A stretch of DNA of 64,000 nt, taken from the NCBI RefSeq assembly GCF_010727945.1, contig NZ_AP022569.1, forward strand, positions 124,001 through 188,000. The letters are read 5' to 3'. The notes below the pieces were generated by a model. That model was not told where the DNA came from. It did no database searches and saw nothing but the letters and a program-made list of their open reading frames with translations. Every line of letters starts with the position of its first letter. Positions within the stretch are counted from its first letter, which is position 1. The translations under genes were made by a program, and so were the position numbers. This DNA is from Mycobacterium cookii (GTDB lineage: Bacteria; Actinomycetota; Actinomycetes; Mycobacteriales; Mycobacteriaceae). Shown here in pieces: positions 20,185 through 37,422 of this stretch.

Positions 20185-23100
20185 GTGACTACTCTTCACA
20201 TCGTGGAGCTGGGGGTTTTGGGACCTCTTCAGGTCCGGCGGGATGGTGCGCCGGTCTCGATTCCGGGCGCCAAACCACGCGCAGTCCTGACGATGCTCGG
20301 GCTGCACGGCGGTTCTGTGGTATCCGCCGACACCCTCTTTGAGTTGCTCTGGGGCGAAGATCCGCCCCGCACTGCCGCGAAGGCGTTACAGACCCACATC
20401 TCCTCGCTGCGCCGTGCGCTGGGCGACGGCGTCGTCGTGACGGAGGGAGCGGGCTGGGCCCTCGCCGAGTGCGATGTCGACGCTGCGCGGTACAGATCCG
20501 CGGCCCGCCATGGGCGCGATGCCGCTGCCGCCGGCGACATCAGCCAAGCAGTGGCTCACTTCGAGGAGGCACTCGCCCTCTGGCGCGGTATCCCCGAACT
20601 GCCGGACGGTCGGCCGGGCACATCGGAGAAGACGCGCTGGAACGAAGGCCATGCCGCGTTGATCGAGGATCGGGCCGACGCGCTGCTCGCGACGGGCCGT
20701 GCCGCGGAAATCATCGGTGAACTCGAGACGGCGGTGTCCGAGGCGCCCCTGCGGGAAAGACGATGGGCTCAACTGATGCTCGCGCTCTACCGCGCCGGGC
20801 GGCAAGGTGAAGCCCTGGCCGCTTTCAAACGGGCGCGCACGGTGCTGGCCGACGAATTGGGGATCGATCCTGGGCCAGAGCTCCGCAAGCTCGAGACCGC
20901 GATCGTCGCACAGGACTCGGCGCTGGACATCGTTGTCGCACAACAACTTCCGTCCGTCATGCGCGCGGTGACTTTTCTGCTCACCGACATCGAGGGGTCC
21001 ACCGCCACATGGGAGGCCGACGCCGACGCCATGGCGGTGGCGCTGGCCCGACACGACGAACTCGCCGAACAGGTCGTCACCTCACGCGGAGGACGGCTGA
21101 TCAAGACACGCGGCGAGGGCGATGCCACGTTCTCGGTCTTCGAGCGACCGTCGGCGGCAGCAGCGGCCGCTATGGAGCTGCAAGACGCGATCACCCACGA
21201 GCAGTGGGGCCTTCGGGCGCCGATGCGGATCCGGATCGCGCTGCACACCGGAGAGGTCGAGCTCCGCGACGGCGATTACTTCGGTAGGGCGGTGAACCGG
21301 GCTGCGCGGCTGCGGTCGTTGGCAGTGGGTGGCCAGATCCTGTGCTCGGGCGCGACCGCCGAACTCGTCATCGACTCGTTGCCCGACGACGTCGTGCTCG
21401 CCGACCTCGGGATGCGTCAGCTCAAAAACCTGGCCCGCCCCGAGCACGTCTTCGAGCTGCGGCTGGAAACCGCAGACGACGATCGGCCGGAGGAGGTGAG
21501 CGAGTCGCCCTTGGAGCGGCCCGGCCTCCCGGCAGTGCTGACCGGCTCCGGCCCATTCGTCGGACGTGGCCGCGAACTCGACGGACTCGTGTCCGCGTGG
21601 CAGACCGCGCTGGCCGGCGGTGCGCATGCCGTGCTGATCGCCGGCGAACCCGGGGTGGGCAAGACACGCTTGGCCGGCGAGTGGTCGCAGCAGGCTTACC
21701 AGCAAGGAGCGGTCGTGTTGTATGGCCGCTGCGATGAGGATCTCGGCGCGCCGTACCAGCCGTTCACCGAAGCGCTCCGCTCGCTCGTGCCCTGCCTCGG
21801 CAGCAGCCGGCTTCGGGCGACGCGCGGCGTGGAAGCACTACTCCCACTGGTCCCCGCGCTGACCGACGTCCTACCCGATGTGGCCGCGCCGACCCGGGCG
21901 GACCCGGATACCGAACGTTACGCACTGTTCGACGCCGTGGTTGCGCTATTGGAAACGGCTTCCGCGGCATCGCCCATTGTCCTTGTACTCGACGACCTGC
22001 ACTGGGCAGCCAAGCCGACACTGCTTCTGTTGCGACACTTCCTGCGCTTCGGCGATCACGCCCGGGTGCAGATCGTCGGCACCTACCGCAGTACCGATCT
22101 GGACCGGTCCCACCCCCTGGCCGCGATGCTCGCCGACCTTCACCGCGACGGCACATCCAACCGGATCAATCTCAGTGGTCTCAATGAGGATGACGTCAGC
22201 GCGTACGTAGCCAAGGCCGGCTACGACGACGAAGAGCTCGGTCGCGCATTGGCATCCGTGACGGGCGGCAACCCCTTCTTTCTCATCGAGGCTCTGCGCC
22301 ACGTCGACGAAAGCGGGGGCTCGTGGGATCCGAGCACGCTGCCTCAGGGTGTCCGAGAGGCTGTGAGCCGCAGGCTGTCTCGGCTTCCGGTGGAGACGAA
22401 CAAAGCCCTTGCCGCGGCCGCCGTCGTTGGCAACCGGTTCGCACTCGAGTTCGTGGAGCAGGTGACCGACCAAGATCTCGTCGACGCGTTCGACGAGGCG
22501 TGCAAGGCCGGGATCATCCTCGAAGAGCCCGGTGGCCGCTACCGGTTCAACCACGCCCTCGTTCGACAGTCGCTGCTTGCCGAGCTGCCCTCGGTGCGAC
22601 GCATGCGGCTGCATCAACGCATCGCCGCAACACTGGAGACCCAGCCCGGCGCCGACGACGAGCTGCTGGCCGAACTGGCGCATCACTACTTCGAATGTGC
22701 ATGGGCGGGTAACGCGGCCAAGGCCGTTGAGTATTCTCGGCGCGCCGCAGATCAAGCGATGGCCCGGCTGGGCTACGAAGGCGCCGCGGACCTCTACGAC
22801 CAAGCCCTGCACGCCTTGGAGGAGATCGACGACGACCTGCCCGACCGCGACGATCAGGCCGCCGAGCTACTCGTCGCGCGTTGCGAGGCTCTGCTTGCCG
22901 CGGGTGATGTGACGTCAGCGGTAGGTGCAGTCGCCCAATTGCAGTCGGCGACAATGCATTCCGGGCGGCTGGCAGCATGGGCAACGTGTTTCGACGGCCA
23001 GTTGTCGATGCTGATCCATCCCGAGCGATTGGACGAGGCTGAAACCGCACTGAGCGCTGCCGCCAACAAGCTGGCCGAATTAGACGACGCCGCAGGCGAA

Positions 23101-35100: not shown

Positions 35101-37422
35101 AGACCCGGTCGGGATGCATTGATCGAAGACTTGCGGGCAGTCGCCGACGTCGACATCACGAATGCGACAGCAGATGTCTTAGCCACCCGCGGAGGTCGTC
35201 TCGCCCTCCTCCGTGCCCAATTCTCGCGCGGCCATGCCGAACCCGACCCGTTTCACGTCGACTTCCTACAGCTCGTCGAGATCAACGCCGAAGATCGGAT
35301 CACAGCCTTCATAGCGTTCGACGCCAACGATATCGACGCCGCGTTCGCAGAACTCGACGCTCGCTATCTCGCCGGCGAAGCGGCCCCACATGCGCACACG
35401 TGGACGGCCATCGCGCAGGTCCAAGCCGCGTATAACCGACACGAACTCCCCCCGACGACGGCGGACTTAGTGAACATCGATCATCGTCGGGGAATAGCGT
35501 TCGCGACCGGCGACACGATCCCCTGGCTGCGCGCTACCTATGACGTCGCGCCGAACGTCAAGGGGCACCTCGAAGCTGTCCACCGGTTGGGCAACCTTGG
35601 GGTGGTCGTCACTGAAGTAGTCACTGGCACCTCACAGGCCGGCTTCGCCTTCGAATGGCGCGAGGTGGCCGTGTTCGTATTTGAAGGCGACAAGATCTGC
35701 CGCTTCGAGCTTTTCGACGAAACAGACCTCGACGCCGCGCTCGCCCGCTTCGACGAATTGCACTCACACCCAACGCGACTGGAGAACGCCGCAAGCCAAG
35801 TCGCCGATCGCTATTGGAAATACTTCGGCGCGCGCGACTGGGCCGCGTTGGCTGAGACAATGGCCGAGGACGTTGACTCCAGCGATCGCCGTCGGGTGAT
35901 CAACGCCGGTGACTTACGCGGTCGTGCTGCCCATTTGGCGAATATGCGAGCAGTAGCCGAGGTCGGATTCGAGGGCCTTACGTCAACCGTGATCGCGACA
36001 CGTGGACAACACCTCACAGTTATTCGCATTCGTTCCTCGGTGCGGGGCTCGGCATCAAGTGAGGTCACCGCTGAGATGCTCAGCATGATCGAGATCGACG
36101 CCGATAACCGGCTCACTGTCGCAGTAATATTTGATCCAGACGATATCGATGCGGCCTTCGAGGAACTCGATGCCCGCTACCTCGCCGGTGAAGCCGCCGC
36201 TCACGCGCGCACGTGGATGGCCGTAACTCAGGTCCAAGCCGCATACAACCGGCATGAAGCCCTTCCGACGACGGAGGGCGTGGTCAACATCGATCATCGG
36301 CGCGGTAGAGCGTTCGTGCCCGGCGACGTGGCGCCATACTTGAGTGCTACCTATGACGTGGCCCCAAACGTCACGGGTTACATCGAAGCGGTGCACCGGC
36401 TGAGCAACCTGGGGGTGGTCGTCACAGCGATAATCACCGGGACTTCACGGGAGGGCTTCGGTTTCGAATGGCGGGAGATCGCCCTGTTCGTATTCGAAGG
36501 CGACAAGATCTGCCGGTTCGAGGTCTTCGACGAGTCAGACCTCGACACGGCGCTTGCCCGCTTTGACGAATTGCACTCGCAACCAACGCGACTGGAAAAC
36601 GCGGCGAGCCGACTAGGTGAACGACAGCTAGCGCATTTCGCGGCCCGTGACTGGGCCGCAATGGTGGAGTTACTGGCCGACGACACCTATACCGACGATC
36701 GCCGTCGGGTCGTGAACGCCGGAAACCAACACGGGCGGGACGTCGACATTGCAACCATGCGAGCCCTCGCCGATCTCGGGGTCGCACATATTGTGTCGAC
36801 AGTCATTGCGACCCGCGGCGAGCGCCTCGCCCTCACTCTTTCGCGCATGTCGGGCCGAGACCAGCGGCCCGATGCCTTCTACACCGAGGCGCTCAGCATC
36901 CTCGAGATCGACGCCGACAACCGTGGCACGGCCAAGGTCGTGTTCGACCCAGACGACATCGACGCCGCCATCGCGGAACTCGATGCCCGCTACCTCGCCG
37001 GTGAAGCCGCCGCCCACGCCGACGCGTGGTCGGCCATCGTGCGGGCGTACACCGCGGTGAACCGACACGAGTTGCCGCCGACGACGCCCGACTGGGTAAA
37101 CATCGACCACCGACGAGGTCGAGCGTTCGCGCCGGGTGATTTGGAGGCTTACCTTCAGGCCACCTGGGATCTCGCACCGAATGTCAACGTGTATGTCGAA
37201 GCGGTGCATCGATTGAGCGACCTCGGGGGGCTCGTTACCCACTGCGCGCACGGGTCGTCGCGCGAGGGTGTCGACGCCGAGTGGCGGGAAGTCATACTCC
37301 TCACGTTCGACGCCGGCAGGATCAACCACTTCGAGGTGTTCGACGAGGCACAGCTAGATGTCGCGCTGAAGCGGATCGACGAGCTCGAACGGCTCTCGAA
37401 CCCGCGTACAGGCGCCGTCTAG
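20185..37422 (+). CDS. Giant 5745-aa BTAD regulator / nucleotidyl cyclase / STAND ATPase with 33 SnoaL-like repeats
   Basis: One uninterrupted frame from GTG 20185. Residues 1-95 form an OmpR/SARP-type winged helix ([34 protein letters not shown]). Residues 96-245 are BTAD. Residues 259-425 are a class III cyclase with metal Asp268 (LLTDIEGST), a GEGD motif with Asp313, and the transition-state pair Asn371/Arg375 (VNRAAR). Residues 450-800 are an AAA/STAND ATPase with Walker A GEPGVGKT (Lys493) and Walker B LVLDDLHW (Asp603-604). Residues 830-1265 are TPR-like helices. From about residue 1278 to the end are NTF2/SnoaL-like domains: one A half, then 16 A-B pairs. No signal peptide or membrane segment, so cytosolic. 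It is probably a ligand- or protein-sensing transcription regulator; the ligand is unknown. The N-terminal layout is known in actinobacteria; the length of the array is exceptional. Start could also be GTG 20203. Confidence 0.92.
24016..37422 (+). repeat. Tandem coding array: leading A half plus 16 A-B SnoaL-like pairs, period 807-813 bp
   Basis: Each unit begins near a conserved RLENAAS motif. Codons for its Glu (or replacement) are at 24451, 25261, 26068, 26875, 27682, 28489, 29299, 30112, 30922, 31735, 32545, 33352, 34162, 34969, 35782 and 36595, giving 269-271 residues per unit. Half A (about 150 aa) contains [24 protein letters not shown] and ends in [20 protein letters not shown]. Half B (about 120 aa) contains [34 protein letters not shown] and ends in [16 protein letters not shown]. 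An extra A half precedes unit 1 (24016-24447). All length differences are whole codons. Units have diverged at DNA level, which argues against an assembly artefact. Confidence 0.93.

Follow-up and report, generated by a model that had tools for sequence, protein, structure and literature searches.

How does a mycobacterium come to encode a protein of 5,745 residues, most of it a repeat array, and what might such a protein do? The 64,000-nucleotide window of Mycobacterium cookii analyzed here (NZ_AP022569.1, positions 124,001-188,000 of a genome assembled as one contig of 5.32 Mb) contains a single uninterrupted frame at 20185..37422 on the forward strand, which we call the giant gene. It opens with GTG and runs for 5,745 codons plus a stop, giving a product of ~628 kDa, as an earlier note on this DNA had read it (a single 17.2-kb frame, 5745 residues, about 0.6 MDa). 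An alternative in-frame GTG at 20203 gives the 5,739-residue version on record (P0002). Across the gene region, 283 stops interrupt the other two forward frames, and each of the 12 blocks examined shows a coding-like pattern of GC by codon position. The protein joins the domains of an AfsR-type regulator and a class III cyclase to an array of paired SnoaL/NTF2-like units, and comparison with relatives indicates that such arrays turn over by exchanging half of a pair at a time. We put at about even chances the proposal that the giant is an AfsR-type ('large SARP') STAND regulator that senses through a combinatorial array of diversified pockets.

The array is built from paired NTF2-like units

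Matches to the Pfam families SnoaL_2 and DUF4440 lie beyond about residue 1250. Using hidden Markov models built from alternate units, this region resolves into exactly 33 SnoaL/NTF2-like units. The same number of SnoaL-like halves had been counted in the earlier note, but they are not equals: a diverged entry unit, A0 (24013..24438, +, residues 1277-1418), precedes 16 alternating A-B dyads of ~269 residues (24439..37419, +, residues 1419-5745). Autocorrelation of the array gives a period of 269-271 residues, and the dyads start at residues 1419, 1689, 1958, 2227, 2496, 2765, 3035, 3306, 3576, 3847, 4117, 4386, 4656, 4925, 5196 and 5467. An AlphaFold2 (AF2) model of dyads 2-3 (25249..26862, +; mean local confidence, pLDDT, 82.6) predicts four NTF2-like units with the alpha+beta cone fold of the SnoaL/NTF2-like superfamily. 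The global score (pTM) is 0.57, and we make no claim about how dyads pack along the array.

This design recurs among relatives. From 120 homologues listed of 358 matches we dropped P0002 and counted the giant's own protein and a paralogue, which gives 121 arrays holding 1,340 dyads, 6 to 22 per protein with a median of 11. In 108 of the 121 arrays, one to four A units lead and A-B pairs make up all the rest; a lone A unit stands at the end of 12 arrays, and one array is irregular. Protein length follows 1,582 + 262 x the number of dyads (r 0.989), and A-to-A steps measure 262-278 residues in 87% of 1,405 cases. A low A score (<75) marks 101 dyads, of which 54 are last in their array, 20 last but one, 25 deeper inside and 2 first, as well as nine of the 12 A units that stand alone at an array's end. 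On this count, about half of the arrays end in a diverged cap, like the paralogue. Cap dyads share a median of 48% identity with one another, and the paralogue's cap is only about 30% identical to the giant's dyads. Unlike its capped relatives, the giant ends in an ordinary dyad. No relic of a cap is found downstream of its stop, the sole match with E<1 in 37001-41000 being the array's own last unit.

The N-terminal region combines a SARP unit, a cyclase and a STAND core

Pfam bears out the SARP-type domain, BTAD, cyclase, AAA ATPase with Walker motifs and TPR-like helices that had been read from the sequence ahead of the array. The SARP unit consists of an OmpR-type winged helix, its DNA-binding half (Trans_reg_C, 20272..20427, +, residues 30-81), and then BTAD, its transcription-activation half (20476..20904, +, residues 98-240, E 1.4e-38). 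The chains of AfsR and EmbR align to the giant from residue 7/8 and span both halves; the phmmer match to AfsR reaches E 1e-39 over residues 8-247.

The cyclase follows (Guanylate_cyc, 20962..21366, +, residues 260-394). It retains the metal, base-selecting and transition-state residues of class III enzymes: D268, K307, E311, D364, N371 and R375. Three residues named in the earlier note, Asp268, Asn371 and Arg375, are as it placed them; the fourth, Asp313, does not occupy the second metal position, where alignment to solved class III cyclases puts Glu311 (GEG versus GDG), a Glu in place of Asp. In an N-terminal alignment of 122 rows, one of which (P0002) repeats another (P0001), D268, K307, D364, N371 and R375 are invariant, and E311 and D313 are each present in 121. 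We take Lys307 and Asp364 to be the adenine-selecting pair of class III cyclases.

The nucleotide-binding core (AAA_16, 21553..22065, +, residues 457-627) carries the Walker A motif GEPGVGKT (21643..21666, +, residues 487-494), which varies by one T-to-S among the 122 rows, and the Walker B motif VLVLDD (21979..21996, +, residues 599-604), in which D603 and D604 are invariant. Next comes a predicted TPR-like helical superstructure (22591..23964, +, about residues 803-1260 in an AF2 model; Pfam TPR_12 at 1180-1244), most of it with good model scores once past about residue 890. A P-loop core with both Walker motifs and a C-terminal part that forms a superstructure is the composition of a STAND protein, and the top Foldseek match of this second model is 6mfv, a STAND-TPR protein.

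Among the closest known designs is that of AfsR from Streptomyces coelicolor, a large SARP of the STAND class, which has the SARP unit, nucleotide-binding core and TPR in the same order. AfsR, however, has 993 residues, and the domain map in the available text shows neither a cyclase between SARP and NOD nor a SnoaL array (PMC10936776). The Mclx proteins of M. tuberculosis (Rv0386, Rv1358, Rv2488c) are likewise mycobacterial regulators with a cyclase followed by an AAA/NB-ARC core, but they end in a LuxR helix-turn-helix instead of beginning with a SARP unit, and a SnoaL array is absent from their description in the text available (PMC4452763).

Arrays turn over by exchange of half-modules

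Dyads within one array share a median of 50% identity and at most 79.7% (14,270 directed alignments of at least 230 residues). Between arrays, 551 dyad alignments exceed 80%, up to 100%. With no within-array pair above 80%, recent tandem duplication is not seen in these alignments, and we rejected it as the mode of growth.

Turnover was followed in 97 array pairs with N-termini at least 94% identical, comprising 2,020 directed dyads, with low-scoring dyads left out. Partners of at least 85% identity are few: 22.6% of the A halves have one, as do 25.4% of the B halves. Both halves match one and the same partner in 178 dyads and different partners in 35; in 544, only one half is matched. For example, dyad 7 of P0038 combines the A half of dyad 7 in P0026 with the B half of its neighbor, dyad 8, and the other dyads of this pair are 97.8-100% identical. 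The inferred breakpoints concentrate at the A/B linker: 410 of 744 fall in columns 118-145, compared with 13.8% expected from 19,593 detected simulated uniform hybrids. Array pairs in these counts are not independent of one another; by distinct dyad the linker share is 220 of 375, and it exceeds 13.8% in 16 of 17 array clusters, the remaining one lying below (0/4).

Two loci from single-contig genomes, L107 and L108, have N-termini 94.9% identical. L107 has 17 units: the final two are 96-99% identical to units of L108, seven are 78-91% identical and eight only 44-60%. In two L107 dyads, the A half and the B half find their matches in separate L108 dyads. In 20 arrays on contigs of at least 4.9 Mb (19 fetched regions, with L122 left out, plus the paralogue; some are also among the 121), identity between units of the same array is at most 64% for A and 72% for B. 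Judged from these alignments, the arrays are the fast part of the protein, their A and B half-modules being replaced and exchanged.

We also considered whether conserved linker DNA guides the recombination, and rejected this idea because the signal is mild: synonymous-codon identity is 0.57 at junctions versus 0.51 in the core, with 0.44 and 0.43, respectively, expected from codon usage.

The matched units are constrained. Among 279 units in 18 close locus pairs, 100 find a partner of at least 80% identity, a cut that favors conserved units, and many of these arrays are truncated at the fetched flank. Pooled ratios of non-synonymous to synonymous change (pN/pS) are 0.25 for A (44 units) and 0.22 for B (56 units), compared with 0.11 for the N-terminus. 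Such values indicate purifying selection on the matched units, which speaks against junk and does not show positive selection.

Variable residues probably line a cavity

Column entropy was calculated over 1,234 of the 1,340 dyads, leaving out the 101 low-scoring ones and 5 of odd length. It alternates along the strands of both A and B units. Assigned by strand register, the two faces have entropies of 1.01 versus 2.94 bits in A and 0.99 versus 2.45 bits in B. The faces were picked after the alternation was seen, for B on two strands only, so the p-values of 1e-4 and 0.006 are descriptive. Through 6p3l (a weak match, E 0.023) and tKSI, column 39 corresponds to Asp38 and column 103 to Asp99 of ketosteroid isomerase (KSI); by hand alignment of A with B, column 236 is the B equivalent of column 103. 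On this weak alignment, the Asp38 column holds Asp in 99% of A and 100% of B units, the Asp99 column is among the most variable of all, and the Tyr14 column varies as well. The variable residues lie on one face of the sheet, probably the one turned toward the cavity.

The ten top Foldseek matches of the two-dyad model are the polyether epoxide hydrolases Lsd19/MonB, which have tandem SnoaL-like domains, and steroid-binding proteins are also among the fold matches. The earlier note had pictured a C-terminal SnoaL sensor array. The SnoaL-like array does stand behind the STAND core; its sensing of small molecules is only made more likely, by the steroid-binding matches and by the variability on the probable cavity face.

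A possible chemical receptor

Two known systems suggest how the parts could work together. In AfsR, the NOD and TPR parts restrain the SARP unit and ATP relieves the restraint, according to the available text of PMC10936776. Single SnoaL_2 domains have been tied to the control of ECF sigma factors: in the ECF41 and ECF56 groups (SigJ, SigG1), a C-terminal SnoaL_2 is thought to modulate the transcription factor, although these proteins carry one such domain instead of 33 and, in the text available, neither a STAND core nor a cyclase (PMC7730460). By analogy with both, the array would sense, the NOD would switch, and the SARP unit and cyclase would be the outputs. Each NTF2-like cone would form a cavity lined by the variable sheet face, providing up to 33 different pockets. 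Ligand occupancy would alter the hold of the array and TPRs on the nucleotide-binding core, and ATP exchange would free the SARP unit to recruit RNA polymerase. The cyclase, needing a dimer, would switch together with the SARP unit. Shuffling of half-modules at the conserved linker would change the ligand spectrum of a lineage and leave the output half untouched. Every step beyond an array of NTF2-like units is an inference, including ligand sensing, the use of the pockets and the transcriptional and cyclic AMP (cAMP) outputs.

Several observations weigh against a sensor of this kind. Equating the variable face with the cavity depends on the weak alignment (E 0.023) and on strand register, and the Asp that all units conserve would fit catalysis just as well. 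Prediction of the NOD part in the second model is poor, and the case for a switch therefore comes from the motifs and the Foldseek match. On average, pN/pS falls far below 1. A and B do not behave fully independently: dyads retaining both halves make up 10.5%, versus 5.7% expected from the rates of the single halves. Finally, no frame upstream of the giant or the paralogue recurs at 45% identity or more among 68 other loci (frames of at least 180 codons, within 6 kb upstream of the giant and 2.4 kb of the paralogue), and thus no pathway is hinted at. Among themselves, up to 12 of those other loci do have upstream frames in common; a common upstream partner of the giant or the paralogue was looked for there and rejected.

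A bolder form of the sensor proposal is tentative, and we hold it to be possible rather than probable: the family may be a mycobacterial receptor for combinatorial chemical recognition, with up to 22 two-cavity modules per protein, all cavities different, single cavities swapped at the linker and near-identical modules avoided. If so, it would be a bacterial counterpart of the shuffled NLR repeat arrays, with enzyme-like pockets in place of WD repeats. A multi-compound sensor that evolves by pocket swaps, encoded in the largest case by a gene of some 22 kb, would then be kept by roughly two fifths of the species sampled in the genus (163/396). The family would offer a natural library of more than 1,000 diversified NTF2-like dyads (1,340 in 121 arrays) and a system for studying how new specificities arise in repeat receptors when no tandem duplication is visible. 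It might also account for some of the extensive cAMP apparatus of mycobacteria. The parts and the STAND logic are already known; the dyadic SnoaL array and half-module shuffling are new as far as the literature searched goes. No description of such arrays was found in that literature, a search mostly outside subscription papers and preprints; in the available text of a paper on NTP-dependent conflict systems, 'SnoaL' is absent and 'NTF2' occurs once (PMC7159879).

Alternative explanations

We asked whether the array could instead recognize proteins or surfaces of invaders or rivals, with the cyclase or SARP unit raising the alarm. Such a hypervariable self/non-self or antiphage receptor would account for a STAND core joined to a fast-changing, shuffled repeat array, and Avs3 appears at Foldseek rank 15. 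Its model would be the WD-repeat NLRs of Podospora, in which a STAND core carries repeats made hypervariable by shuffling within and between members of the gene family (PMC4986451). In the text available, however, the WD, ANK or TPR repeats of fungal NLRs are more than 85% identical internally, whereas NTF2-like dyads within an array stay below 80% (maximum 79.7%). PADLOC returns weak and partial matches only (Pycsar cyclase, E 8e-4; mads_8, E 1e-3), and the output is a transcription activator with no killing domain. Moreover, binding of small molecules is the commoner role of NTF2-like cones. We therefore consider an immune receptor unlikely.

The array might also be a processing line in which every cone works as an isomerase, cyclase or hydrolase, with regulation running to or from the N-terminal half. 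Consistent with catalysis, 99-100% of A and B units have Asp where KSI has its base, and close fold matches are to enzymes, tandem epoxide hydrolases included. Of these, Lsd19 and MonB are separate enzymes with two SnoaL-like domains in chains of about 270-283 residues. But the Asp99 column ranks with the most variable and the Tyr14 column is not constant (on the weak alignment), which makes one common chemistry unlikely, and no upstream neighbor of the giant or paralogue recurs in the other loci. Taken together, an enzyme array is quite improbable.

Slightly poorer still are the prospects of a length-tolerant spacer or assembly scaffold, in which the array only sets size, dimerizes or tethers while its sequence drifts. 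A range of 6 to 22 dyads is what tolerance of length would give, but the matched units are under purifying selection, the A-B order is kept in 120 of 121 arrays (bar an extra leading A or a lone final A), variability is concentrated on one sheet face, and the near-identical neighbors expected from drift with tandem duplication are absent.

An assembly or pseudogene artefact is extremely improbable: long repeat arrays are often misassembled, and the N-terminal part is split over two frames in some relatives (G102, G078), but the longest exact direct repeat within the giant gene is only 39 bp, making a collapsed or inflated array unlikely, collapse is ruled out by this together with a like pattern in arrays on megabase-sized contigs, the design recurs in the 121 arrays and in the 20 on contigs of at least 4.9 Mb (partly overlapping sets), and the frame is open and under purifying selection.

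Distribution and related families

A second giant of 4,140 residues and 21 units, the paralogue, lies in the same genome (L009:5153-17572, -; G000:C1, about 2,357,153-2,369,572). Its N-terminus is 80-84% identical to that of the giant and its design is alike, with a diverged cap dyad at the end. Also in this genome, two adjoining frames of 1,135-1,150 residues at G000:C1:461545-465598 (L003, L004, L010) are 42-44% identical to residues 260-504 of the giant; they are too short for a long array. In some other genomes, two SARP-type giants lie close together on one contig (L112/L113, L082/L097).

Gene conversion between copies in the same genome finds no support in three cases. Identity per dyad is at most 65-67% between giant and paralogue, and identity per unit is at most 65% for L112/L113 and 60% for L082/L097, the last pair being covered only to the fetched flank.

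Of 396 genomes sampled in the genus (Mycobacterium in the wide sense), 163 have a match to the N-terminal 1,270 residues at E <= 1e-150. At the level of the order, 22 of 298 genomes match at 1e-100; 20 belong to the genus, and the two outside have frames of 1,265 and 1,307 residues. A dyad query across the phylum finds matches at 1e-12 in 7 of 396 genomes; six belong to the genus, and the seventh, a weak match (31%), lies outside it. Carriers named among the best 80 of 171 matches include M. interjectum, kyorinense, colombiense, scrofulaceum, asiaticum and genavense, together with Mycolicibacter and Mycolicibacterium species. The earlier note knew of no array this long. Longer homologues are on record: among the matches listed, 8 of the 119 others exceed the giant, reaching 7,509 residues.

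In a second family, a zinc ribbon (DZR) replaces the SARP unit and is followed by cyclase, AAA_16, TPR and several SnoaL units. Its core is 38-40% identical to that of the SARP-type giants. Members include proteins of 3,655 (L122), 2,498 (L147) and 1,940 residues (L143, from another family of the class). The first is encoded at L122:1635-12599 (+), in a genome that also carries a SARP-type giant (L117), and its array repeats at lags of 275 and 549. At 1e-60, the core of the zinc-ribbon family finds matches in 72 of the 345 genomes searched in the class, SARP-type giants included, and outside the genus the matching frames are mostly 1,000-1,500 residues long. Of the C-termini at five core-match loci, those of L143 and L147 have SnoaL units and those of L144-L146 end TPR-like by eye.

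Neighboring genes

Downstream of the giant gene, a dapB frame (TIGR00036; window 37424-38170, +) opens one base past its stop. Two further open reading frames, at 38650-39201 and 39208-41235 (+), have no match in Pfam, NCBIfam or PADLOC. A PPE-family protein, which fits a mycobacterial host, is encoded at 48086-49240 (+).

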